Virus record (IMG/VR): IMGVR_UViG_3300037549_000107
Coordinates: 1 to 20,030 of that record
DNA from: a virus
Strand: one strand, 5' to 3'
Length of the DNA: 20,030 nucleotides
Below the pieces are notes generated by a model. It saw only the letters and a program-made list of their open reading frames with translations, had not been told where the DNA came from and made no database searches. Made by a program: the position numbers and the translations under genes. Each line of letters opens with the position of its first letter. The stretch's first letter is position 1. Below, in pieces: positions 146 through 15,225 of the stretch.

Positions 146-1084
146 TTAGATGGTGGTTGTCACGATGATGACGCGAACACCTTCTGTGCGCATGGCGTTA
201 ATCCACAAGTCGATGGTGATGTCCATGCTGTTGACCTTGGAAGTGGACTTTTCCACGCCCATGTCACCGATTTCCATTGCCATCGCAACGGACTGCGGAG
301 CTAGGACAACGCACGAGCGGGTCGTGGCGCCTTCTGGCAACACTGGCTGGGCAATCGTGCCACCACCCGTGCTGGAGCCAGCAAACACCTGCACCATGTA
401 CGTCTTACCAAGACCCTGGGCGACACCCGCAACATCGTTGGGAGTGGCAACCATGTAATCTTGGTTGATGAACTGGTCTTCGCCCATGAGGTCGGTGTTT
501 TCCTGACCTGTCACGCAAACCGTCGAGCCAGCGAAGTCGCTATATTGCAAATCGCTGTTGATGAAGGTCTGAGTGATGGCTTGCACGATTTCGTAAACGA
601 AACCGCCCGTGCCGTCGATGGTCACAACGCCGTCTGTGGCAGCGCTGATGGTCGTGGGCGCGGTGTCTGGGCCACCAACAAGGACGTTACCGACAGCAGC
701 GGCAACAGCCACGCGGTCAATGACACGTTCTTTGGCGTTGTTGAGCTGAGCCAGGATGTCGCTTGTGGGGTCAGCCAACAGCTCGTTGACATCGTACTTC
801 ATGTCAATCTGAATGGTCTTGGTGAAGCGACGCTTCGTGAACAAGCGGTTATCCAGCGCATAGTCGCCAAATTGCTTGTCAGGGTTGCGCGTGTTCACTT
901 CGTCCAATTCGATACGACCGATACGAGCGAAGTTGTTGGTCTTACCCTTGCTCGGCAGGAAGGTGATTGCCTTCGTGGCAACGAGCTTGGATTTGGTCTG
1001 TTGCGCCAACGCAAAGAAGCTGTCTTGAAAATTCAAGCGAGCGGCCTGCGAGATTGACGGGGAGGTGGTGTATGAAAGACCCAT
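146..1084 (-). CDS. Major capsid protein
   Basis: This 312-aa protein is the likely shell subunit of the phage head. I base the call on overall character: an N-terminal segment like those of podovirus-type capsid proteins (MGLSYTTSPSISQAARLNFQ), the RRFTKTIQIDMKYDVNEL region that resembles an E-loop/P-domain strand, a helix-rich middle, and a C-terminal beta strand after DMGVEKSTSK. Position supports it: scaffold and a small structural gene lie directly upstream. The Shine-Dalgarno AAGGAGAA lies 8 nt before the ATG. A terminator and a possible promoter lie in the 281-bp gap upstream, so it may have its own transcript at high level. Ends in TAA. Confidence 0.85.
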   Translation of the reverse strand: MGLSYTTSPSISQAARLNFQDSFFALAQQTKSKLVATKAITFLPSKGKTNNFARIGRIELDEVNTRNPDKQFGDYALDNRLFTKRRFTKTIQIDMKYDVNELLADPTSDILAQLNNAKERVIDRVAVAAAVGNVLVGGPDTAPTTISAATDGVVTIDGTGGFVYEIVQAITQTFINSDLQYSDFAGSTVCVTGQENTDLMGEDQFINQDYMVATPNDVAGVAQGLGKTYMVQVFAGSSTGGGTIAQPVLPEGATTRSCVVLAPQSVAMAMEIGDMGVEKSTSKVNSMDITIDLWINAMRTEGVRVIIVTTTI

Positions 1085-1143
1085 TGGGGTTCTCCTTCAA
1101 AGAGTTGAAAACGAGGGGTTTTGAACGATTTGAAGGTGTCCAG

Positions 1144-1155
1144 TAAGCCTGGGCT
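1144..1155. repeat. Short inverted repeat upstream of capsid gene
   Basis: AAGCC-TG-GGCTT is a perfect 5-bp palindrome with a 2-nt centre, in the leader of the capsid gene. It is short enough to arise by chance. Confidence 0.25.
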
Positions 1156-1217
1156 TCTAGCCTTGTTGGGCGGCTTATTTCCGCTGAGGGGCCATTGCTG
1201 GGTATCCCTAGGTGGTA

Positions 1218-1245
1218 AACATACCAAATGCGGTAATTTTTGCAA
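1218..1245 (-). promoter_or_regulatory. Possible promoter for capsid gene
   Basis: On the minus strand, TTGCAA (1245-1240) and TATGTT (1223-1218) are separated by 16 bp, and TGG precedes the -10, giving an extended -10 of TGnTATGTT. It lies after the terminator and about 130 bp before the capsid ATG. Both hexamers match consensus at only 4 of 6 positions. Confidence 0.35.
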
Positions 1246-1267
1246 TGAAAATAAATTTCGCGTAAGT

Positions 1268-1281
1268 GAAGACTGTAATCC
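1268..1281. promoter_or_regulatory. Dispersed palindromic operator, copy 1
   Basis: GAAGACTGTAATCC is one of eight copies of the imperfect palindrome. It sits just after the terminator and before the possible capsid promoter, about 185 bp upstream of the capsid start. Confidence 0.55.
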
Positions 1282-1284
1282 GCA

Positions 1285-1323
1285 CAAAAAGAGAGCCCCA
1301 CAACCCAGGAAGTGGAGCTCTCC
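1285..1323 (-). terminator. Rho-independent terminator
   Basis: On the minus strand GGAGAGCTCCAC (1323-1312) pairs with GTGGGGCTCTCT (1301-1290) over 12 bp with two G-U pairs and a 10-nt loop, followed directly by a short run of T. It lies 42 bp past the stop of the 245-aa gene, so it would end, or attenuate, the leftward transcript before the capsid gene. Confidence 0.8.
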
Positions 1324-1365
1324 TTGCGCGACAGACAGCGTGTTTGCGCTGCCTCGGTGCCTCTG

Positions 1366-2103
1366 TTACGCCACCTTCTTGGTGCCGTAAATCTTATCAT
1401 AAAGCTGCTTATAACCGATGGTGGGATGGTATTTCACCTTTTTGTCATCGGCAATGGCCTTGAGCTGGTCAAGGCTGAGCTTGCTGTCGTTTGCCTGTGG
1501 GTCATTGGCCGTGAATTTACCTTTGCCTTGCAGCTCCAGGTTTGCGCGGTCAATCGTTTCCTCGATGTCAGCCACATGCCCGCCAGCGCGGCGCACGATG
1601 GCGTCAGCGGTGATTGGCTCATGCTGTGCAGGCTTGAAAGCCTGGTTTGTCCACATGTATTCAGGGCCAACCATACCATGAATTTTGCGGGCAGCTTCTG
1701 ACCAAGCAACGCGGCGAGCGTGCTGGAGGGAACATGTTTTGTACAGCGGCACGCCTGAGAGGTCATTTGCGGCTGCGAAGTCTTGCAGCTCCTCAAAATT
1801 CATCTCCATGATGTCCTTGCCGACATACGACAACACTGCATTTGGTGCGTCATCGTTTTCTTCGATGCTGTCGATGAAAACCTGGCGCACCTTCATGACG
1901 CGCTTGTATTTGGGCTCCTCAGCACCGTTGACGGTCTTCTTGGCGCGGCCAATCCAAATGATGGCATAGCGTCGAACGACCATTTGCAGGGCTTTGTCCT
2001 CGTCAAGCGCGGGGATGATGCCCACGATGTTGTCAAAGCTCTCAATGTCGCCATCGGATGCTTTGAAGCTGCCGGAACAGGTAACTTTCAGTGTCTTGCT
2101 CAT
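1366..2103 (-). CDS. Structural-module protein of unknown function
   Basis: This 245-aa protein lies between scaffold and capsid genes. I chose the ATG at 2103 (MSKTLKVTC) because GAAGGA lies 8 nt upstream; a GTG start 27 nt earlier has none. The N-terminal 100 residues look like a beta-rich domain with conserved-looking RVMKVRQVFIDSI. The C-terminal SLDQLKAIADDKKVKYHP resembles HeH/LEM or SAP-like helical motifs (LkaIAdekgikyhp), known from phage and Rho N-terminal domains, so it might bind nucleic acid or a partner; this is by eye only. It shares the hexapeptide YMWTNQ (residues 149-154) with the portal protein. A palindromic operator lies just upstream. Confidence 0.75.
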   Translation of the reverse strand: MSKTLKVTCSGSFKASDGDIESFDNIVGIIPALDEDKALQMVVRRYAIIWIGRAKKTVNGAEEPKYKRVMKVRQVFIDSIEENDDAPNAVLSYVGKDIMEMNFEELQDFAAANDLSGVPLYKTCSLQHARRVAWSEAARKIHGMVGPEYMWTNQAFKPAQHEPITADAIVRRAGGHVADIEETIDRANLELQGKGKFTANDPQANDSKLSLDQLKAIADDKKVKYHPTIGYKQLYDKIYGTKKVA

Positions 2104-2140
2104 AGTGTTTTCCTTCTCTGGATAAAGCACATTTAAGTGC

Positions 2141-2154
2141 GGGTTGTAGTCTTC
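2141..2154. promoter_or_regulatory. Dispersed palindromic operator, copy 2
   Basis: Minus strand GAAGACTACAACCC, in the 69-bp gap between the scaffold stop and the next start. It is embedded in GGTTG-N7-CAACC and also adjoins a second inverted repeat, GTCTTC-N5-GAAGAC (2150-2166). No clear promoter is seen, so if functional it would act on passing transcription or mark a weak start. Confidence 0.5.
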
Positions 2155-2172
2155 AACCGGAAGACCAGCGGA

Positions 2173-3198
2173 TTACCCTTGCGAGATGCGAGGGTCATTC
2201 TCGTATGTCTTGGCCAGCTTGGTGCGTAGCTCTTGGATTTGGTCAGCCGTATGAGGGCCAGCCGTTAGCCTGCCCATTTGGGCGCGGAGGTCAGCGCGTA
2301 CCGCGTTCACGTCACCGCCAGACATATTGGCCTTGTCTGCGAAGTGCGCGAGGTTGGTTTCTTTGACGCCATAGCGCTGCATCATCGCCTGCGTGGCTTT
2401 ATCGACATTGCCCAGCGTGCGGTAAATCAGTGCTGTGTAAGCGTTGGGCAAGTGCTCCATGAGCTTCTGGTCTTGGTCGGTCATCAACCCCTTGAGGTTG
2501 TTGTAAGCCACGCCTGTGGTCTTCTCCCAATCGTCACCAAAGGCACCCTTCATGGTTTCTTTGAAGCCCTCAGGGTCGAACATAGCGGCCTGCTGAGCTT
2601 CACCGACAGCCTGGTATTGCTTGATGATTTCGTTCCCCTGCACTTCGCTGATACCGTTCTCCATGAATATCTTGCCCACAGCGGTCTTGACATCGGGGCT
2701 GGCCATATCGCCCTCGAATTTGTACGCGCTTGGGTCAGCGGGGCGCAGTTGCTTGTAAAACTCCTCACGAGCCTCTGGCGTGGCTGTCTTGAGGTCAGGA
2801 ATGACGGCTTTCTTGCCCACAAGCGTGTCGAGGTTGTCGATTTGCTTGAACAGGTCGGCCTCGCTCTTAATCTTCGCTGCCCACGGCTTATCCTTGTATT
2901 CGTCAGGGATTTTGAATGCAGGCGCGGATGTGTCGGGCTGTGTGGTGGATTGCTCGCCTGGTTTCGCTTCGGCTGAGGTCGTTGTGGTCGTTTGACCAGT
3001 CTGGCCATCGGTTGTGGTTCCAGACGTTGAGCCCGCGCCAGCCGGTTGCGTGGTCGTCTGTTGGCCGTTTCCCGCGCCACCAGCAGGCTGTGTGGTCGTG
3101 GTTGATGTCTGAGTGCCAACACCTGCACCAGACGCGCCTGGCGAGGCTGTGGTGGTCGTTGGCGATGCGGTTGTGGTCGTTGTGGCGGCTTCGGTCAT
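2173..3198 (-). CDS. Capsid scaffolding protein
   Basis: This 341-aa protein is the probable internal scaffold that guides capsid assembly. About 90 N-terminal residues are low-complexity Thr/Gly/Gln/Ala (runs of TTTTT and repeated TTTTASP and TTTQPAG). The rest is charged and helical, with IPDEYKDKPWAAKIKSEADL followed by a LVGKKAVIPDLKTATPEA region, the W-to-GKK spacing seen in many siphovirus/podovirus scaffolds. Its position two genes before the major capsid protein fits. The start overlaps the stop of the 70-aa gene (TAATG), which suggests translational coupling. It could alternatively be a minor head protein with a mucin-like N-terminus. Confidence 0.75.
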   Translation of the reverse strand: MTEAATTTTTASPTTTTASPGASGAGVGTQTSTTTTQPAGGAGNGQQTTTQPAGAGSTSGTTTDGQTGQTTTTTSAEAKPGEQSTTQPDTSAPAFKIPDEYKDKPWAAKIKSEADLFKQIDNLDTLVGKKAVIPDLKTATPEAREEFYKQLRPADPSAYKFEGDMASPDVKTAVGKIFMENGISEVQGNEIIKQYQAVGEAQQAAMFDPEGFKETMKGAFGDDWEKTTGVAYNNLKGLMTDQDQKLMEHLPNAYTALIYRTLGNVDKATQAMMQRYGVKETNLAHFADKANMSGGDVNAVRADLRAQMGRLTAGPHTADQIQELRTKLAKTYENDPRISQG

Positions 3199-3410
3199 TA
3201 TGCAGCTCCTGGTGTGTGTGGTGGGATGGTAAGGACGGTCTGGGTAACAGCTTTGCTGGCGGGGAAAGCCTGGGCGAATTCGCTGTTGGGGTAAACTTGA
3301 ACGGTGCCAGGGGTGACAAGCTCTTGTGATGGCGTCAGCGTCACCTGCGTTGCGCCTTGCACAATCACAGTTGGGTTGACGTTATCGTTGAGCTTGTCAC
3401 CACAGGACAT
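3198..3410 (-). CDS. Small hypothetical structural-module protein
   Basis: A 70-aa protein, MSCGDKLNDNVNPT..., rich in V, T and P with predicted beta strands and no charged helices. Only 3 nt separate its ATG from the upstream TAA, and its own stop overlaps the scaffold start, so it is tightly coupled in the head operon. No motif recognised. Size and composition would suit a small decoration or connector protein, but nothing proves this. Confidence 0.6.
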   Translation of the reverse strand: MSCGDKLNDNVNPTVIVQGATQVTLTPSQELVTPGTVQVYPNSEFAQAFPASKAVTQTVLTIPPHTPGAA

Positions 3411-3413
3411 GGC

Positions 3414-3914
3414 TTACACCACGAATTTGTCGGCAAACATTGCGGCTGGCATGTACCAAGAATAAGCTCCATCGGTACACCAGTAATCACCAACCCCACA
3501 GATATTGCCCGCAAGCAATGCGCGTGTGCTGCCGTCTTCCAGCGTCACAAGGCTGTCAGTTGTTGCCGCACCCTCGACAGGTGGCTCGACAGCAATGATT
3601 TTACCGGCTTGGATTGTTGTGGGCTTTGACGAATAGGTGGGGAGTGGGGAAGGATTTAAGCCATCTCCAGAGCTGTCTGCCCCAACCATTGTTTTTTTTT
3701 GCACTTCTTGGTCGATGTTATCAATCGAGGTGTCAGCGGTCAGCGTCATGCTGCCGTCTTCGGCCTCAACGAGCTCATTGCCGACAGCAGGAAACGCTGG
3801 CTGTGCTGCAAGCCACTCCTTGGTGACCTTGAAGGGCTGCGGCAAGACGGTGAACAGCTCAACGCTGCCATCTTCTTGAACAGGGCCTAATCCGGTGATT
3901 TGGTGAGTTTTCAT
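3414..3914 (-). CDS. Structural-module protein, paralog of the neighbour at 3924-4190
   Basis: This 166-aa protein has an N-terminal domain (residues 1-64, MKTHQITGLGPVQEDG) clearly related to the 88-aa protein encoded immediately upstream: both share THxITGxGPVQ, LFTV, a P-xxxG motif and DGxxTL. It adds about 100 residues containing VTLEDGSTRALLAGNICGVG and GAYSWYMPAAMF, which look beta-rich. A run of nine A lies at the domain junction (codons for QKKT). The Shine-Dalgarno GGAGC precedes the ATG. Function unknown; a decoration or baseplate-type small virion protein is possible. Confidence 0.65.
   Translation of the reverse strand: MKTHQITGLGPVQEDGSVELFTVLPQPFKVTKEWLAAQPAFPAVGNELVEAEDGSMTLTADTSIDNIDQEVQKKTMVGADSSGDGLNPSPLPTYSSKPTTIQAGKIIAVEPPVEGAATTDSLVTLEDGSTRALLAGNICGVGDYWCTDGAYSWYMPAAMFADKFVV
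3692..3700 (-). repeat. A9 homopolymer inside coding sequence
   Basis: Nine consecutive A on the coding (minus) strand at the boundary between the two domains of the 166-aa protein. It is the longest homopolymer I saw in a coding region here and is a possible slippage site. Confidence 0.5.
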
Positions 3915-3923
3915 GTTTGCTCC

Positions 3924-4190
3924 TTACAGTGTTTCAGGATTGGCCACATCGCCACCGTCATCAACGGGGTCGATTTGTGGCTGCTCTGGCACAGGAGCAC
4001 CTGGGTTTGAGATGAGGGTGACTGTGCCATCACCGTTGTCAGTCAGTTGGTCGCCTGGTACGGGCGTGCGCGTGAAGGCTGTAATCTGCGCGGCAGTGGC
4101 AAAGTACGGTGCAGGGCGCACGGTAAAGAGGATTGTGGTGCCGTTCGGTTGCACAGGGCCAACGCCTGTGATGTCGTGTGTCGTGCTCAT
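3924..4190 (-). CDS. Small structural-module protein, paralog of the neighbour at 3414-3914
   Basis: An 88-aa protein, MSTTHDITGVGPVQPNG, that corresponds to the N-terminal domain of the next gene. Its C-terminus (PGAPVPEQPQIDPVDDGGD) is Pro/Asp-rich and probably disordered. The ATG overlaps the preceding stop (ATGA) and AAGGA lies about 9 nt upstream. The pair looks like a tandem duplication followed by gain or loss of the second domain. No known family recognised. Confidence 0.65.
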   Translation of the reverse strand: MSTTHDITGVGPVQPNGTTILFTVRPAPYFATAAQITAFTRTPVPGDQLTDNGDGTVTLISNPGAPVPEQPQIDPVDDGGDVANPETL

Positions 4191-4549
4191 TCAATGTCCT
4201 TTCGCATGTCGGGCGTGAGGAATGGACGCACCCAATCCAGATAAAACGCTGATTTGAGCCTCACGTCCACCATTTTCAATGTGTCCTTGTAGTGTGGCGA
4301 GCTGAACATTCCAGAGTGTTGCACGAGCGACTTAATGAACAGTTGCCCGTCAGGTGATTGCGCGAGCGCTTGCACGGTGGCTTTCCATGTCTCCAGCTCT
4401 GCAATCTGGAATTCTTTGGCTTCTTTGCGCTTTTGCGCAGCCTCAGCGAATGCGTCCGTTTGGAGCATTTGGTTGAGCAGAGGGTGGCCAGTGCTGACCT
4501 TTCCCTCTGTCTCAGGTGCTTGGGATGCCTGCGGCTTGTGTTTGACCAT
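4187..4549 (-). CDS. Bbp19-like small virion-module protein
   Basis: A 120-aa protein placed directly after the portal gene. Residues about 65-110 (SPDGQLFIKSLVQHSGMF ... KSAFYLDWVRPFL) follow the pattern of the Bbp19-like phage domain: a short helix with G, a long helix, a spacer, then a basic residue and a final hydrophobic helix. Proteins of that family lie next to T7-like portal genes in many podoviruses and have no proven role. The assignment is by pattern only. The start overlaps the end of the portal gene by 38 nt; AGGAGC lies 8 nt before the ATG. Confidence 0.6.
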   Translation of the reverse strand: MVKHKPQASQAPETEGKVSTGHPLLNQMLQTDAFAEAAQKRKEAKEFQIAELETWKATVQALAQSPDGQLFIKSLVQHSGMFSSPHYKDTLKMVDVRLKSAFYLDWVRPFLTPDMRKDIE

Positions 4550-6461
4550 TTCTAATTGCTCCTGCTGATGCCATCAATTGTGACGCAGTGGCACCATCTT
4601 TGGCGGCTGATGCCAATTGTGCGTTGCCCGCAGCCTGGGCTTGTTGTTGCCGCGCTTGCGCTGCCTGCGCAATTATTGCCTTGAAGTCATCGGCACTAAT
4701 CATGATTTTCGCGTCGATGTCGAGGTTGTCGTTGATATCCTTGAGGAGCTGATACCAGTCGATGGCATGAACGATGTCAGGGTACAGCGCGGCCACAGCC
4801 GTGATGCTCTGTATCATTTGCACGAGGTTCTGGATTTTCTGCGTGCGCAGCAGGTTTTCCAGCTCGTTGTTGAATTCCAGCTCATACCAAGGTTTGCCTG
4901 CGGCGAAGCATTGCAGCACGGCGTCAGGGATGATTTGCGTCAGCTTTTGCTTTGCCGACATCTTGGCAGCGGCCTGAGGGTGCTTTTCTTGGTTGACGCC
5001 CAGCTCACCACATTCCCAGCAAATACTGATGGCGCGGCGCACGTCAGGGATAAGGCGCTCATTCTTCTGCCGGATGAGGATGCCCGCCAGGCTCTTGCCG
5101 CGGATATTGTAGCGCTGCAAACTCTCTGTGGCCGTCATGGTGTTGTCGCTGTTGAAATCGAGCAGCGCGTCCACCTTGAAGGCGGTCGTGATTTTGCCGT
5201 TAAGGTACGGGATTAAAAACTTGATGATGTCGCTGGGGTCACCCACGTCATGAATCGGGAACACCGGCGCCTGAGAGCCAGCGGCGAATTGCTGGTTGAA
5301 GATTGTCAGGCCGTTGGCGCTCGTATCGAGCACGCTGTCACCGAAAATGGCATTGCCATACGCTCCAAGCGCTGGGTTGGCCATCTTTTCCATAATCTCC
5401 TGGGTGATGGCAAACATGTAATTGTTGCTGCTGATGGTGCTGAGCAGCATGGTGCCAGAGCTGCGGCCATAGTCTTCACCGCGCACCTTGATTTGGCGGC
5501 ACATGTTGACGGGGCGCTCTCTGAAACTTTCCTCACAGAAAATCTTGTTGATTGCGCTGCCGCTATCCATAAACCAGACACCGCGCCATTTGAAACCCTT
5601 CTTGCCCAGCAGTTTGGGGTCGAAGTCTTCGCGGGGCATCCACAAAAACACGAGGTCAAATTCCTGCGTGAGGTTGCGTTGGTTCCATGCGTTTTGGATT
5701 TGCTGGGGAAGCTGTGAAAGCGCCTCTGTGGTCACTGTGCCGTCAGGCATGCAGAATTCTTCCACAATGCGTGCGCAGCTCCAATGGTTCATGGCATAGC
5801 CAAAATCAGGCGCACCGCTCTTGCCTTCCTTGATGCGCGTGTTGTCGATGCCATAATTGCGGGCAACCATGCAATTCTCGTCAATGCCGCGCAGGAAGCC
5901 CTGATTTTTGAATAGGCCAATGCCTGAGGTGCCAAAGCTGAATTGGTCATAGCTGTATGGCTGGAGAGCGGCCACATAACCGGCGTCTGGGTGGTTCATG
6001 TGGTAAAGCGTTTGCTCTGTGACGTAGCGATACCAGTTTTTTACGGTGTTTTCGTCAACGAGGGCTTTTACCCAACGGCTGGGGCGCACCTTGAAGACGT
6101 TCTCGCCGGTTTCCCACATGATGCCGACGAGGTAATCACCCGCCTGGTTGACGCTGATGGCGCTGGTGGGGTCATCCACAAACTCGTCAAGCTGGCGGCT
6201 TTTGACGTTTTGATTTGTCCACATGTAATCCGGCTGCACACTGATGCCGGTGACCTGTGAAATTCTATCCCAAATGGGCTTGTACCGCTCGCCGTTGGCT
6301 TTCAGCTCGGTATAAATGCGGTAAATCTTCTGAAAGTCATCCTGGTCATCGGGCTGACCCTGTGGTGGCATAACGGGAGGCGGTGGCGTTCCTGGCAACG
6401 CTGACGTGACCATGACGGGCGTGGGCTCTTTAGGCCCTTGGGCGTTCCCGCGGCGTGCCAT
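4512..6461 (-). CDS. Portal protein (podovirus head-to-tail connector)
   Basis: This 649-aa protein forms the dodecameric ring at the capsid vertex through which DNA enters and leaves. The length and character match the T7 gp8-type head-to-tail connector family: a helical start (DDFQKIYRIYTELKANGERY), the segment DDPTSAISVNQAGDYLVGIM, the stretch DQFSFGTSGIGLFKNQGF, and a Gln/Ala-rich C-terminal helix (residues about 600-625) that likely forms the barrel. The first 40 residues are Pro-rich and probably flexible. It sits between TerL and the scaffold/capsid genes, as in most podoviruses. The Shine-Dalgarno is weak and the stop of the preceding gene overlaps, so translation may be coupled. Confidence 0.92.
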   Translation of the reverse strand: MARRGNAQGPKEPTPVMVTSALPGTPPPPVMPPQGQPDDQDDFQKIYRIYTELKANGERYKPIWDRISQVTGISVQPDYMWTNQNVKSRQLDEFVDDPTSAISVNQAGDYLVGIMWETGENVFKVRPSRWVKALVDENTVKNWYRYVTEQTLYHMNHPDAGYVAALQPYSYDQFSFGTSGIGLFKNQGFLRGIDENCMVARNYGIDNTRIKEGKSGAPDFGYAMNHWSCARIVEEFCMPDGTVTTEALSQLPQQIQNAWNQRNLTQEFDLVFLWMPREDFDPKLLGKKGFKWRGVWFMDSGSAINKIFCEESFRERPVNMCRQIKVRGEDYGRSSGTMLLSTISSNNYMFAITQEIMEKMANPALGAYGNAIFGDSVLDTSANGLTIFNQQFAAGSQAPVFPIHDVGDPSDIIKFLIPYLNGKITTAFKVDALLDFNSDNTMTATESLQRYNIRGKSLAGILIRQKNERLIPDVRRAISICWECGELGVNQEKHPQAAAKMSAKQKLTQIIPDAVLQCFAAGKPWYELEFNNELENLLRTQKIQNLVQMIQSITAVAALYPDIVHAIDWYQLLKDINDNLDIDAKIMISADDFKAIIAQAAQARQQQAQAAGNAQLASAAKDGATASQLMASAGAIRNGQTQAAGIPST

Positions 6462-6737: not shown

Positions 6738-7172
6738 TTAAACCTCTTTTGTTCGAGTTGTCAGACGGCTCCACTCGTCTGTGAATTCTTCTTCTGCTTT
6801 TTTAACATCATTTGCGTCCGTTGCAAACAACATAGTGATGGTTGTCTGCTCGGCAGCCACAAAGACTTGTTTCCGGTCAGCGCTGGCGGCCAGTGCATGA
6901 TAGCCAATTAAATTTACAAAGTCATCCCCTCTGTACACGAGGCAGTTGCCGCTGATGATGACTATGGTGGGGATTTTGATGTGGGCGCCGGTCAGGATGC
7001 TGTCGGCTGGCATCGTGAGCGTGCGGCAATACATGCCAGCGTGCAGGAAGTGCTCAACCTTAAACGGTATTTGCTCCCAATTCTCAGCGCTAAAATCCTC
7101 TAGGCGCCTGGCGTTGTCGCGGGCTTTCTGCAACATGGCCGGAATGCCAGTGATGAGTGCCGGTACGGTCAT
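6738..7172 (-). CDS. Cupin-like phage protein
   Basis: A 144-aa protein in which residues about 38-115 have cupin-type order: KVEHFLHAGMYCRTLTMPAD, then a LTGAHIKIPTIVIISG strand pair, a GDD turn, and FVAAEQTTITMLFAT near the end. Small cupin-like proteins of this kind are often encoded between terminase and portal genes in podoviruses; their role is unknown. The C-terminal helix DVKKAEEEFTDEWSRL also recurs in that family as I know it. The ATG overlaps the previous TGA (ATGA). A palindromic operator lies 22 bp upstream, within the end of the preceding gene. Confidence 0.6.
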   Translation of the reverse strand: MTVPALITGIPAMLQKARDNARRLEDFSAENWEQIPFKVEHFLHAGMYCRTLTMPADSILTGAHIKIPTIVIISGNCLVYRGDDFVNLIGYHALAASADRKQVFVAAEQTTITMLFATDANDVKKAEEEFTDEWSRLTTRTKEV

Positions 7173-7621
7173 AGGTCGATGTAATACAATTTTGAGATTA
7201 CAGTCTTCTTGTCGCGTGTGAGCTTTCGGTCAATCACACCACCTGGCTCTGCGCTGATTATCATACCTGTGACAGCGCGGGCGCGGCAGAAGGCTTTGGC
7301 AGCCCCTAGGAGAGCGTTGCCTGCGCCGGTCGTTCTGTATCGGTCTATGACGTAAAGGCTCTCCACCATAGCCAATTGGCCGCCTGGTACGTCTAAAACG
7401 CTGATTATCCCAATGAGCCTGTCTTCGTGCATTGCGCGGAACAGCATGAGCATTCCAGCTTGCTCCAAAGCGTGATAATTCCGGCGCGAATTGAGGCTCA
7501 ACAAATAACCGGCCTTCATGCCTGGGTTACCTTGACCCTTGTGAAGATTATAGTCTTCAAGCAATTCATCGTAATGAGGGTCTGAGTTCATCTCTGCAAC
7601 GCATGTGGGTTCAACCTGCAT
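7169..7621 (-). CDS. GNAT-like acetyltransferase
   Basis: A 150-aa protein with an N-terminal segment (DPHYDELLEDYNLHKGQGNP) typical of phage GNAT-like proteins encoded near TerL, a central strand (MHEDRLIGIISVLDVPGG), and an acetyl-CoA-binding signature, SLYVIDRYRTTGAGNALLGA, in which R-x-x-G-x-G lies before the helix. GNAT enzymes move an acetyl group from acetyl-CoA to an amine; the target of these phage proteins is unknown. The ATG overlaps the TerL stop (TAATG). One palindromic operator with a perfect TATAAT lies inside codons for DYNLH. Confidence 0.7.
   Translation of the reverse strand: MQVEPTCVAEMNSDPHYDELLEDYNLHKGQGNPGMKAGYLLSLNSRRNYHALEQAGMLMLFRAMHEDRLIGIISVLDVPGGQLAMVESLYVIDRYRTTGAGNALLGAAKAFCRARAVTGMIISAEPGGVIDRKLTRDKKTVISKLYYIDL
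7195..7208. promoter_or_regulatory. Dispersed palindromic operator, copy 3
   Basis: Minus strand GAAGACTGTAATCT, within the last codons of the GNAT-like gene and 22 bp upstream of the cupin-like start. No good promoter hexamers flank it; GCGACA lies 1 nt before it on the minus strand. Confidence 0.5.
7543..7558. promoter_or_regulatory. Dispersed palindromic operator, copy 4 (inside a gene)
   Basis: GAAGATTATAGTCTTC is the most symmetrical copy, 16 bp. It lies inside the coding region of the GNAT-like gene near its 5' end. On the minus strand it contains TATAAT. Because it encodes an apparently conserved segment it could be coincidental, but the match is the best of the set. Confidence 0.45.
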
Positions 7622-9326: not shown

Positions 9327-9387
9327 GTGATACCCTCCGAATTGAAGCCCCTGCCGCAATATCCACTAAATGTGGTAAAACGTCAAA

Positions 9388-9921
9388 TTATTTAGAGCCT
9401 CTGGCGGTAGGCGCTGGCTTCCCAACCTCGAAAACAACCTCTGTGCCATTAATGCGCAGCACAGGCATGATGTTAAATTGCGCGGTTCCGGCTTCCAGGT
9501 CGGTGTACAGCTTGAAGTGCTTGGCCAATTTGTCTAGCGCACTGTCCTTGCTGTGCAGCTTGATATATTTGCCAGGCTCAATTTCGCTGATGCAGCGCTG
9601 TTGGGAGGTGTGCAATTCGTCAAGGTCTTTCAGCACCCACTTTTTGCCCTGCCGCTTGTAAAACGATGCGATGTTTGACATGGCAATGTAGGTCAATTCC
9701 TCAAGCACGCGCTCTGCTGTGGCTTGGGTTTTCTCGTGCATCTTTTCCAGCAAAGGTGCCAGGTAGAGCTTGACGTGTGGCAAAGCAAAGACGCGGTGCG
9801 CATGCTGGCGGGCATTCTTGGCCGAATAACCGGCGCGAATACACGCCTGCACCTGGTTGCCATCTATCAGGAATTCATGGCACGCACGTTTTTGCTGCTC
9901 GCTGATGATGGCGCGTGTCAT
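9388..9921 (-). CDS. Terminase small subunit (TerS)
   Basis: A 177-aa protein of the Terminase_2 type, which recognises phage DNA and hands it to TerL. The N-terminal DNA-binding helices show the family pattern: LSEQQ-like IISEQQKRACHEFLIDGNQVQACIRAGY split as QQKRACHEFLIDGN and AYSA-like AGYSAKNARQHAHRVFALP, then the oligomerisation helices with RVLEELTYIAMSNIASFY and the later LDKLAKHFKLY. The ATG overlaps the stop of the previous gene. The C-terminus (KPAPTARGSK) is basic and may contact TerL. Confidence 0.9.
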   Translation of the reverse strand: MTRAIISEQQKRACHEFLIDGNQVQACIRAGYSAKNARQHAHRVFALPHVKLYLAPLLEKMHEKTQATAERVLEELTYIAMSNIASFYKRQGKKWVLKDLDELHTSQQRCISEIEPGKYIKLHSKDSALDKLAKHFKLYTDLEAGTAQFNIMPVLRINGTEVVFEVGKPAPTARGSK

Positions 9922-10654: not shown

Positions 10655-12465
10655 TATTCCACCTCGTATGTGCGTATTGCGTCATCGTCGCCGTTGGATG
10701 CAGATTTGAGCCGGTCGGCTGCGGCAATCTGCTGGGCGCTTAATTCCTCCTCAATCGGGCTGTATCTCCCGCTGCTGGTGTCGTAACGCAGCTTGGTGCT
10801 GCCGCGGCGCCCAACGTGCTTAAAGCGCACTTTGTTGATGAGGATTTCGCTTGTGTCATCGAGCGCGTCAGAGCGATGCACCACAATGCCGTTGTCGCAC
10901 ATGTTCACAAAATGCGCTGAGCCTGCCATGTCGTAGAGGCTTGGTGCGTCGATTTTGCCGGTTTTCTGGTTTTTCTGCTGTTGCTTTGGATGCACAACGA
11001 GCCAGACATGCACCCCATAATTTGCTGCAAATCGCCTGATTTTTGGCAGGCTCTCAGCGACATAATCGGTTTCACTCTTACCGGCCAGCACCTTCTCAAT
11101 CAAATTCCAAGGGTCGATGATGAGGCCCTTGGCACCGAAGCGCATGACGGCATCCTTGGCACGCTCTAAAATCCAGTCGAGCGTTGGCATGGCGTCTTTG
11201 CTCTCGATAAACGTGTAATGGTTATTGACCCAAGCAGCTCCTGATTTGAACGTGTCGATTGACATGCGCCGGTACGCTTTCGGGTCGGCAGGCATCTCAA
11301 CGCGCTTTTCGATGAGCTTGGTGGTCTGGGCTTCCTTGCCATTTTCAGGAGAGAACACGGCAAAGCGCCAGTTTTCGTTGAGCGCGAGGTTGACGCTGAG
11401 CGCGTCGAGCCATTCCGATTTTCCGCTGTTGGGGATGCCGGTGACAACGGTAAACTGGCCAGGCATAACGGTATAGAGCTTATCAACATTCTTCCAGCCG
11501 GTTGAAACACCTGAGGCCATACCGTAGTTAAAATATGCCTCCAGCTCGTTCTCAAAATCATCGACTGAGAACAAACCCAGAATTGGCAAATCCTTTGCCT
11601 CTCTGATGTCGGTGCATACCCAATCACCACCATGCTCTGCCATCGTCTGGCAGACGCTTCCGCTGGTCAGCTTGGCTGCCGCGCACCTTCCTGGCCCCAA
11701 TCGTCTGGCGAGCTCTTGGCGCAGGGCTAGGCCATCTTTGGTGTCGTCGCAGGCAAAGACGATTTTGTGCCATCCCTTGGCCTTTGCTGAGGCGTGCGAC
11801 ATGAAGGCAAAGCGGTCAGGTGCCTGGTTGAAGTCATCGCCGGTGGGTTTAATGTCTGCACCGTTTGGCACACCGATGACGTTCATGATGCCACGCTCCA
11901 TGAGCACAATGGCGTCGAGCTCGCGGTGCGCGATGACCACAGGCTCGCTGTTGACGCCCAGCTTATCTAAGCCAAAGAATGTGGCCTTGTTGGGGTTTTC
12001 CAGCTTGCTCTTGCCTGTGGCTATCTGCACCAGAGCATAATTTACAATTTGGGTGCCTTCAAAGTACGGTATCTTTATCGCCTTTTTCGTACCATCCCAT
12101 GAGAGCTTGTGCTTTATGGCATCTTCCTCCGTCAAACCTTTTGCAGCTAGGAAGGCCAGCGCGTCAGGTGGCAAGCTCTTAGGAGCGTGAGGGGCCGCGA
12201 TGGGGGTATCATCTTCATGCGCGGCCTCAGCCGTATCAGGCTTCTCCCCAGCGTGACCTGACCACAAGCAAAAGCTGCACCGCCATTCCGTGTATTGATG
12301 TGGCTGGTCAATTGTGACGTTAAGCGGGGTTTTATTCGAGGGTGGGCGGGATTTCTGGCAGTAACTCTGGGGGCAGTCTGTCTGAATTTCTTGGGTTGCT
12401 TTTGTGAGGTCTGGTTTTACTTTTATGCCGTTTTCTGTGAGAACGGCCAGGAAGTTTGAGATCAT
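10654..12465 (-). CDS. Primase/helicase (T7 gp4-like, Toprim plus DnaB-type helicase)
   Basis: A 603-aa replicative protein. An N-terminal zinc-binding region has C31, C36, C63 and C66. A Toprim-like domain follows (about 170-265), but its motifs are degenerate: IAHRELDA (178-185) replaces the usual TEGEIDA, and ACDDTKDG (238-245) replaces the DxD-containing motif, so the primase active site may be impaired. The helicase domain looks intact: Walker A GIPNSGKS (343-350), Walker B GLIIDPWN (447-454), and the sensor-type His in LVVHPKQ (492), with KVRFKHVGRRG as probable arginine finger region. It would unwind DNA 5'-3' at the phage fork. AAGGGGT precedes the ATG. Confidence 0.9.
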   Translation of the reverse strand: MISNFLAVLTENGIKVKPDLTKATQEIQTDCPQSYCQKSRPPSNKTPLNVTIDQPHQYTEWRCSFCLWSGHAGEKPDTAEAAHEDDTPIAAPHAPKSLPPDALAFLAAKGLTEEDAIKHKLSWDGTKKAIKIPYFEGTQIVNYALVQIATGKSKLENPNKATFFGLDKLGVNSEPVVIAHRELDAIVLMERGIMNVIGVPNGADIKPTGDDFNQAPDRFAFMSHASAKAKGWHKIVFACDDTKDGLALRQELARRLGPGRCAAAKLTSGSVCQTMAEHGGDWVCTDIREAKDLPILGLFSVDDFENELEAYFNYGMASGVSTGWKNVDKLYTVMPGQFTVVTGIPNSGKSEWLDALSVNLALNENWRFAVFSPENGKEAQTTKLIEKRVEMPADPKAYRRMSIDTFKSGAAWVNNHYTFIESKDAMPTLDWILERAKDAVMRFGAKGLIIDPWNLIEKVLAGKSETDYVAESLPKIRRFAANYGVHVWLVVHPKQQQKNQKTGKIDAPSLYDMAGSAHFVNMCDNGIVVHRSDALDDTSEILINKVRFKHVGRRGSTKLRYDTSSGRYSPIEEELSAQQIAAADRLKSASNGDDDAIRTYEVE

Positions 12466-12893
12466 AAATTTATACCCCTTCTGTGTACGACTGTTTCATG
12501 GTTTTCAGCCATGCACTCTTTGAACTTTTTAGATAGATACCCCTTTGTCAGGTAGGTCTGAAAGGCCATTTTGAAGTTGGCGTATTGCTTACCCTTCGCC
12601 TGCATCTCTGCGCGGAATTCCTCAATCATCAACCGCACCTGAAACTCAATAAGGCCGGTTTTGAATATCCAGTCTTTGAAGTCCGTGTAATGCAGCTCTT
12701 TGCCACGGGCGGTTTCCCATTGCTCCATCGTGACAAGACCTTTGGCATTCGTGATTTTGCGCGGCTTTGGCCCCTCTTGCAGCTTGCACCACGTTTCTGC
12801 GCGTTGGATTGCTTCTGTGACGAAACGCTTTTGATTAGGGCCAAGCGTACCGTCCTGACTGATGGCAGCCAGAACCTGTTTGATTGTTGCCAT
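12462..12893 (-). CDS. Probable replication-associated small protein
   Basis: A 143-aa protein starting MATIKQVLAAISQDG; the ATG at 12893 has GGAAGG upstream and is better than the upstream alternative. The C-terminal half (MIEEFRAEMQAKGKQYANFK, AFQTYL) recalls the DNA-binding tail of phage replication initiators and helicase loaders (EEF-x-YW...W...F..W), but the conserved Trp residues are absent, so this is weak. It is the first gene after a strong operator-controlled promoter and overlaps the primase/helicase gene by 4 nt, consistent with a helper of that enzyme. Confidence 0.6.
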   Translation of the reverse strand: MATIKQVLAAISQDGTLGPNQKRFVTEAIQRAETWCKLQEGPKPRKITNAKGLVTMEQWETARGKELHYTDFKDWIFKTGLIEFQVRLMIEEFRAEMQAKGKQYANFKMAFQTYLTKGYLSKKFKECMAENHETVVHRRGINL

Positions 12894-12939
12894 AGTGACC
12901 TTCCAAGTTAATGCTGGTTTCCAAATCAGCACAGGTTGC

Positions 12940-12969
12940 ATAATTGCAGATTGCAGTCTTCACTGTCAA
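12940..12969 (-). promoter_or_regulatory. Operator-controlled promoter for replication genes
   Basis: On the minus strand a perfect TTGACA (12969-12964) is followed after 18 bp by AATTAT (12945-12940). The spacer is filled by the palindromic operator. The sequence continues ATGCAACC, as in the rightward promoter at 14964-14992, so the two look like copies of one module. Confidence 0.7.
12946..12961. promoter_or_regulatory. Dispersed palindromic operator, copy 6
   Basis: GCAGATTGCAGTCTTC sits between the -35 and -10 of the replication promoter, an ideal place for a repressor. Confidence 0.65.
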
Positions 12970-12978
12970 GCAAGAGTT

Positions 12979-13014
12979 GCGAGAGGGTCAATTTTTTGGA
13001 AACAACCCTCTCGC
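12979..13014. other. Perfect 10-bp hairpin upstream of the replication promoter
   Basis: GCGAGAGGGT pairs with ACCCTCTCGC around a 16-nt loop containing T6. No T-tract follows the stem on either strand, so it is not a classic terminator. It ends 10 bp before the -35 hexamer of the leftward promoter. Confidence 0.6.
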
Positions 13015-13260
13015 TGTGCCTTGGAGGTCGTACCTTGGCTTTTGGCACAATACCCCCTTAAACACCAAGCTGCAAGCTCCTCTCTACGCTTGCGCATGCG
13101 GTTATGCGTCATCTTAGCAAGGGCATTCGTGGTGATGTTCTCGTTTTTACCACTGTTTTTGCTGACTATTTGTGCAATTGCTGAAAGGTATGAAAGGAAC
13201 TACCCCCTACCCCCTAAAGTTTCAAAAAAGATTTTGCACGGGGGTCAATGCCATTGCGGC

Positions 13261-14635: not shown

Positions 14636-14946
14636 GGTAGTGTTCTCCTTTGGATTGTTATGGGTTTGAGGCTCAGCGGTTTCTTGTTTCCTTTACGGTC
14701 GCCGCTGCGAACAAACGTAACAGGCTTTTGCATGAAAGCCAAAACGTCTTCCATAATTCTCACGGAGATGTCTTTGCCGTCACGCAGGCGGGTAACGAGG
14801 TTTCTGTCCTGCATAATGTACCAGCCGAACAAGCAGCCATCGTTAGGCATATCGTTGATGGTTAAGAATTCCTCAATGTGCTCCAGCAGCCAAGGCGTGA
14901 TGGGCTCAATTGGGTCTGGTTCTTTGATGATAAATGTTTTTTGCAT
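14632..14946 (-). CDS. Small HTH transcriptional regulator, candidate phage repressor
   Basis: A 104-aa protein. Residues about 18-74 (LLEHIEEFLTINDM ... CLFGWYIMQDRNLVTRLRDG ... RIMEDVLAFM) match the pattern of short alphaproteobacterial HTH proteins: LL-x-IE-x-FL, then FG-xxx-xD-x-xLV-xxLR-xG, then a helix ending in x-FM. The tail is basic (SGDRKGNKKPLSLKP). The ATG at 14946 lacks a Shine-Dalgarno; a perfect TATAAT lies 7 bp upstream, so the mRNA would be leaderless, as for lambda cI from PRM. Two palindromic operators lie directly upstream, fitting autoregulation. I infer that this protein binds them; the XRE protein at 17264 is the rival candidate. Confidence 0.75.
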   Translation of the reverse strand: MQKTFIIKEPDPIEPITPWLLEHIEEFLTINDMPNDGCLFGWYIMQDRNLVTRLRDGKDISVRIMEDVLAFMQKPVTFVRSGDRKGNKKPLSLKPITIQRRTLP

Positions 14947-14948
14947 TT

Positions 14949-14964
14949 GAAGATTATAATCTGT
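14949..14964. promoter_or_regulatory. Dispersed palindromic operator, copy 7 (leftward promoter)
   Basis: GAAGATTATAATCTGT contains the palindrome GATTATAATC and overlaps the -10 of the leftward promoter. It lies 22 bp from copy 8, centre to centre, about two helical turns, so two dimers could bind on the same face. Confidence 0.7.
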
Positions 14965-14981
14965 TGACTTGAAGATTGCAA
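14953..14981 (-). promoter_or_regulatory. Leftward promoter of the HTH regulator
   Basis: Minus strand TTGCAA (14981-14976), 17-bp spacer, perfect TATAAT (14958-14953). The expected start is at or next to the A of the ATG at 14946. Its -35 overlaps operator copy 8 and its -10 overlaps copy 7. Confidence 0.65.
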
Positions 14982-14992
14982 TCTGAAATAAT
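14964..14992 (+). promoter_or_regulatory. Rightward early promoter
   Basis: TTGACT (14964-14969), 17-bp spacer, AATAAT (14987-14992), each 5 of 6 to consensus. Operator copy 8 fills the spacer. The predicted start, near 15000, leaves a leader of about 38 nt before the first plus-strand gene. Confidence 0.75.
14971..14986. promoter_or_regulatory. Dispersed palindromic operator, copy 8 (rightward promoter)
   Basis: GAAGATTGCAATCTGA contains the perfect palindrome GATTGCAATC and occupies the spacer of the rightward promoter. Confidence 0.7.
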
Positions 14993-15036
14993 GCAACCCA
15001 TAGCTGATTTTGGAAACTCAGCAACGGAGGTCAAAT

Positions 15037-15225
15037 ATGAGCAGAACGGCACACTTGGAAGCCCTTTACCTGAAAATGGTCTATACCATCATCGAGGAGC
15101 AAAAACGGTCAGATTGCTCTGAGGCTGTGATAACCGCATGCGAAGTGGCAAAGCGCGTTATTCACCGCGAGCACGCCGCAATCATGCAATCTCGTCAGCA
15201 GTCCAGCACACAGGTGCTGCAATGA
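15037..15225 (+). CDS. Small early protein, first gene of right arm
   Basis: A 62-aa, mostly helical protein starting MSRTAHLEALYLKMVY. The ATG at 15037 has GGAGG 7 nt upstream. Not recognised. As the first gene after the operator-controlled rightward promoter it would be made at once when repression is lifted, so it could act on host functions, but this is only positional. The next gene overlaps its stop (ATGA). Confidence 0.65.
   Translation: MSRTAHLEALYLKMVYTIIEEQKRSDCSEAVITACEVAKRVIHREHAAIMQSRQQSSTQVLQ

Follow-up and report, generated by a model that had tools for sequence, protein, structure and literature searches.

The locus raises the question of how the early genes of a phage are controlled from the gap in which its leftward genes (from 14946, running into structural genes) and its rightward genes (from 15037) diverge. 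In the initial annotation this gap was taken for a genetic switch compressed into about 45 bp, with two operators in overlapping divergent promoters. The stretch that we analysed, hereafter the window, is 20,030 nt long (virus record IMGVR_UViG_3300037549_000107) and is a fragment of the genome of an uncultured phage. Our analysis suggests a wider arrangement. Control of the early genes seems to be twofold, on DNA by an operator-binding protein and on RNA by a small antisense RNA, and we regard this two-layer reading as the probable one, judged from sequence. Coordinates are given in Table 1.

For comparison we used six contigs with a common gene order (L003, L004, L005, L006, L022 and L023), which together with the window make seven genomes; the helicase of L003 is 79% identical to that of the window. 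A DNA search of the named phage collection revealed no similar phage, and species genomes contributed no relative. Relatives were also sought via portal, exonuclease, RuvC, HTH and genome contigs, and no extra genome with the early region was found beyond the seven. A primase/helicase 36% identical across 94% of its length is encoded on an Azospirillum brasilense replicon (NZ_CP032346.1, 622047-623777), which is a possible hint of alphaproteobacterial hosts. On the contig G001 the two ends (809-5567 and 38845-43628) carry tail-region gene sets that are alike, not identical, so that this contig is either chimeric in its assembly or contains a duplication.

Table 1. Genes, predicted promoters, candidate operators and RNA elements of the window, ordered by position.
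Feature	Positions	Strand	Sequence and remarks
Operator-like site, dispersed	1267-1282	+	upstream of capsid gene
Operator-like site, dispersed	7544-7559	-	TGAAGACTATAATCTT; within gene 7169-7621
P_M ribosome-site region	12894-12907	-	CTTGGAAGGTCACT; before ATG 12893
P_M leader hairpin (second copy of target b)	12912-12931	-	TGCTG-ATTTGGAAAC-CAGCA
P_M, second leftward predicted promoter	12940-12969	-	TTGACA-18-AATTAT; before 143-aa gene and primase/helicase
Candidate operator O3	12947-12962	-	TGAAGACTGCAATCTG; in P_M spacer; 15/16 identical to O2
Predicted antisense RNA	12979-13046	-	about 70 nt, two hairpins
Segment b' (hairpin B loop)	13003-12994	-	GTTTCCAAAA; complementary to leader-hairpin loops
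Segment a' (hairpin A loop)	13029-13023	-	GACCTCC; complementary to ribosome sites
Predicted promoter of antisense RNA	13047-13075	-	TTGCAG-17-TATTGT
First leftward gene, 104 aa	14632-14946	-	kept in 7/7 genomes
Candidate operator O1	14948-14963	+	TGAAGATTATAATCTG; 12-bp perfect palindrome core 14951-14962; over P_L -10
P_L, leftward predicted promoter	14953-14981	-	TTGCAA-17-TATAAT
P_R, rightward predicted promoter	14964-14992	+	TTGACT-17-AATAAT
Candidate operator O2	14970-14985	+	TGAAGATTGCAATCTG; palindrome core 14973-14984; fills P_R spacer, covers P_L -35
P_R leader hairpin (target b)	15003-15022	+	GCTGA-TTTTGGAAAC-TCAGC
P_R ribosome site (target a)	15026-15032	+	GGAGGTC; 4 nt before ATG 15037
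First rightward gene, 62 aa	15037-15225	+	
HTH_3 (Cro/CI-type) regulator, 76 aa	17264-17494	+	directly after erf, rightward operon

What had been described in the gap holds to the base. The two palindromes, AGATTATAATCT in O1 and AGATTGCAATCT in O2, are each their own reverse complement and start 22 bp apart, and a promoter scan finds both promoters as sigma-70-like elements with a 10/12 match per promoter. The described placement, with one palindrome in the P_R spacer and the other over the -10 of P_L, whose -35 is covered by the first, fits as well, provided that the first is the site in the P_R spacer. A repeat search paired O1 with O2 in a direct repeat of 17 nt at 88% identity, and their palindromes are the sole copies of AGATTNNAATCT without mismatch in the window. 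A TTGAC-type promoter equivalent to P_R was found in all six relatives, and L003 has the same divergent architecture with another palindrome, CAGGYTATARCCTG, of which one copy lies in each promoter spacer. The leftward ATG (14946-14944) follows the TATAAT of P_L by just 6 nt, so that the mRNA would be leaderless; this geometry is also present in L003 and L023, and the lambda cI mRNA from P_RM is likewise leaderless. The initial annotation had further proposed that dimers could cooperate across the two helical turns between the sites. As a general rule this fails, since the spacing of the operator pair is 22 bp in the window, 25 bp in L003 and 40 bp in L023, with about 20 bp also found among the genomes.

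The palindromes O1 and O2 are very probably real operators, which argument rests on their recurrence at P_M (O3) and elsewhere. In the window TGAAGAYTRYAATCTG has 13 matches at up to three mismatches compared to 0.81 expected (0/100 shuffles), O3 being the closest copy; the P_M site had in part been used to tune this consensus, and some of the 13 matches are both strands of one palindrome. A motif built from O1 and O2 alone finds two further sites elsewhere at no more than one mismatch (0.12 expected). Operator-like sites in the window number about nine at most, the dispersed ones being weak copies; they are palindromic and occur on both strands. The slot upstream of the capsid gene is also filled in L003 (21561) and G003 (21090). 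Confinement of the switch to about 45 bp is not supported, since the operator motif is also present at P_M and elsewhere and an RNA layer seems to act on both operons. As a side observation, the capsid-gene site is preceded by a GC-rich, hairpin-like stretch in all three genomes, and the scan scored no terminator upstream of the capsid gene in the window.

None of the four relatives searched contains the operator motif of the window. That the relatives miss operators altogether was considered and rejected, since each genome has a motif of its own and merely the window's motif is absent. The palindrome of L003 is repeated at the P_M homologue and again close to the capsid gene, and L004, L022, L023 and L006 have motifs of their own in both the divergent region and P_M (AGAATNNATTCT in L004). 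The best 16-mer identities between the two regions are 15, 15, 14, 10, 16, 14 and 14 in the seven genomes, a cognate sum that is reached by only 10 of 5040 permutations; the best 16-mer of L004 is an A-rich stretch rather than a palindrome, which makes that cell weaker than it looks. L005 is the exception in which the match between the divergent region and P_M fails. In six genomes, motifs for which the divergent region was the main source have copies in other places above shuffles. De novo enumeration of palindromes gave noisy lists and was helpful only for G003. Operators that drift between genomes, yet match within each, are as predicted for sites bound by a co-evolving protein.

Two proteins are candidates for binding the operators, namely the 76-aa HTH_3 protein and the protein of 104 aa that the first leftward gene encodes. 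The former matches HTH_3 (PF01381) with 31.5 bits (gathering score 23), and its gene is found at the same place in L003, L005, L022 and L023. Its structural model (pLDDT 93.6) resembles BldD, C-protein and P22 c2 and has a 434/P22-repressor-like fold. The model of the 104-aa protein (pLDDT 80) contains four helices in the right order and a beta-hairpin, and its best PDB matches are Rep, HipB and C.Esp1396I at a Foldseek E>1. No sequence-profile match was obtained for this protein, which judging from the model is possibly a lambda-repressor-like HTH protein. A profile comparison of the two candidates detected no relation. No HTH_3 match was found in L006/G004, though operators are present there, and the HTH_3 protein is therefore not established as the sole operator binder. 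A loss of the operators from G004/L006 had been considered and was rejected, an identical 16-bp site being found at both promoters.

The second layer concerns the mRNA leaders. Downstream of P_R a hairpin with the loop KKGGAAAC precedes the ribosome site in 7/7 genomes, and the same hairpin is found after P_M. The loop sequence GGAAAC is nearly invariant and the stems vary: among eight hairpin copies aligning gap-free, 13 cells were changed on both sides of the stem compared to 3.7 in shuffled alignments (0/500). With a covariance model of the hairpin, the P_R and P_M copies were the only ones above noise in the window. As whole stretches the window leaders fold no better than shuffles. Since the P_M leader sits between 12941 and 12893, ATG 12893 is the most likely start of the 143-aa gene (12462-12893, minus strand), rather than 12941, where the longest open reading frame begins. 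The conserved leader hairpin appears to be targeted by a small antisense RNA from the same phage.

The locus of this predicted RNA lies in the last 100 nt of the non-coding gap between ruvC and P_M. A TTG-type promoter with a 17-bp spacer ends 6-10 nt before hairpin A in 7/7 genomes, the single promoter scores being weak in that random positions equal them in 0.2-20%. Hairpin B is very stable and in 6/7 genomes folds better on the leftward strand than on the rightward one. Compared to shuffles, folding of the RNA gave z values of -4.1 in the window, -5.5 in L006, -3.1 in L023 and -2.4 in L005. From these features we infer that the small RNA is transcribed leftward. No intrinsic terminator is seen after it, so that the model has to assume processing or read-through. 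Rfam searches returned no match at gathering for this RNA, and only two chance snoRNA matches in the region at E<=5. When read rightward, the locus has the look of a third leader, i.e. a hairpin with GGAAAC followed by GGAGGTC, suggesting that it may have arisen as an inverted leader copy.

The order of segments a' and b' suits antiparallel pairing with a leader. The cognate energies for pairing a' and b' to the two leaders were compared with all reassignments between genomes. Counting the true assignment itself, 2 of 5040 permutations were equal or better; the corresponding numbers are 7 for a' alone, 4 for b' with P_M and 221 for b' with P_R. All come from seven related genomes, so that the permutation counts do not represent independent trials, and from segments chosen by eye. 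Where the leader loop reads TTGGGAAAC (L004, L005 and P_M of L022) or CTGGAAAC (L023), the antisense loop is altered in step, and b' matches the loop variants of L004, L005, L006, L022 and L023. The flanks of the ribosome site co-vary as well, CACTCCTT with AAGGAGTG in L022, CTCCTTTCA with TGAAAGGAG in L004 and GTCTCCT with AGGAGAC in L023. Within the window the P_R and P_M targets of b' rank 5th and 26th of 3968 60-nt stretches, overlapping ones counted. Those of a' rank just 133 and 672 of 3968, because the CCUCC within a' pairs with many ribosome sites. Pairing between small RNA and P_R leader is poor in L022 (rank 568 of 2210), and by full-length unconstrained duplex energies the targets are not ranked highly.

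Taken as a mechanism, a dimer of a phage HTH protein would bind O1 and O2 and shut both P_R and P_L, of which P_R would read the operon of exonuclease, Erf and the HTH_3 protein. Binding of the same protein to O3 would turn off P_M and with it the replication operon. The mRNAs from P_R and P_M would start with the same hairpin immediately 5' of the ribosome site, and the small RNA, made just upstream of P_M, would expose a' to the ribosome sites and b' to the leader loops. Pairing of both segments would block translation of both operons, similar to c4 RNA in P1; repression is the effect that we infer for either layer. Only tentatively do we propose the more far-reaching view that immunity-type antisense RNAs of a new phage family are at work here, which silence two operons via a shared leader hairpin and whose specificity evolves alongside the operators of the repressor, giving two-layer, heteroimmune control in phages without integrase. 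If the two-layer reading is true, it would be a second case of P1-like dispersed operators together with an antisense RNA around the ribosome site, here in an uncultured phage group, and a portable hairpin would allow one RNA to serve two operons. The prediction is a precise one, since the short RNA and its loops are defined and natural loop variants would already act as compensatory changes, so that RNA-level specificity between related phages is directly testable.

The C4 antisense RNA (RF01695) is a processed RNA of about 77 nt that is made in vivo and has an antirepressor operon as target. The two hairpins that define it, with loops directed at the ribosome site and at a second segment, are also found here by folding and pairing computation. 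The present RNA remains below the covariance threshold of the family, and we describe it as one that might work like c4 and do not call it a C4 RNA. Phage P1 combines a C1 repressor that has 22 dispersed operators with a trans-acting c4 RNA (PMC8546580), which carries complementary segments in loops and by which the ribosome site is blocked (PMC12197685). Our predictions share with P1/P7 c4 the small phage RNA, the looped complementary segments around the ribosome site and the dispersed operators, here as computed features only. They differ in that two operons are apparent targets via a shared leader hairpin, and in that these encode exonuclease, Erf and HTH proteins and primase/helicase instead of an antirepressor. 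The switches of lambda, 434 and P22 are similar in their divergent promoters sharing palindromic operators of about 14-16 bp, in a Cro/CI-type protein of the rightward operon and in the geometry of a leaderless leftward mRNA. In contrast to these, there are two sites per region and not three, their spacing is not conserved, the HTH_3 gene is distal in its operon, and no integrase or cleavable repressor was found. The stoperators of Cluster A mycobacteriophages are dispersed sites whose sequence drifts among related genomes (PMC6550527), and the dispersed operator-like sites described here drift likewise. They are, however, few, palindromic and on both strands and not many, asymmetric and in one orientation, and we saw no evidence of transcription stopping. 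In its fold the HTH_3 protein, and possibly the leftward protein too, resembles the restriction-modification controllers C.BclI, C.AhdI and C.Esp1396I, which have tandem palindromic operators within the regulated promoter as well, but no restriction-modification genes were seen here.

Could the operators act on their own? A lambda/434-like bistable switch of two operators and two HTH proteins, in which the RNA complementarity is incidental, would account for divergent promoters that share operators, for an HTH_3 protein with a 434/P22-repressor-like fold in the rightward operon, for a first leftward protein that is possibly HTH and for the leaderless P_L resembling lambda cI from P_RM. It would leave the conserved hairpins and the co-varying complementarity unexplained, though, and it is unlikely also in view of the variable operator spacing and of a leftward HTH assignment that comes with Foldseek E>1 and no profile match. 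Furthermore, a search of five contigs (two of 38 and 44 kb, the rest fragments) found neither a PF00589 integrase nor a PF00717 (LexA/S24-type) repressor. The genetic switch of the initial annotation thus stands in part: divergent early promoters with two operators appear to be regulated, as indicated by the same layout in L003 and by the co-variation with P_M, whereas lambda-like lysogeny genes were not found in these five contigs.

The leader hairpin might instead be the site of a phage RNA-binding protein for antitermination or translational repression, with hairpin B as a third copy on the opposite strand. A nearly invariant GGAAAC loop on variable stems would agree with this, as would the resemblance of the small-RNA locus, read rightward, to a hairpin with GGAGGTC. 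We give this explanation a small chance, since the conserved promoter points leftward with no rightward one before hairpin B, hairpin B itself folds better leftward in all genomes but one, b' follows the loop variants of five relatives and a' co-varies too, which is not required of a protein site. It is very improbable that the small RNA serves mainly as a ColE1/R1-like copy-number control of an extrachromosomal prophage, acting on P_M and primase/helicase. P_M does read replication genes and an integrase was not found, but the P_R leader is matched by the small RNA as well, no partition gene or plasmid relative was found, and the plasmid matches are distant helicases only. Control of both operons by operators and antisense RNA remains the reading that we prefer.

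Two minor observations concern the surroundings of the small-RNA locus. The non-coding stretch from ruvC to the small RNA (13571-13080, minus strand) contains a promoter-like TTGACA-17-TAACCT and a stable fold at 13540-13270 (z -3.2); L003, L005 and L022 also have this promoter and the first hairpin, and the rest is poorly conserved. In L005 only, a tRNA-Met (CAU) gene (9334-9408) is located between the small RNA and P_M.
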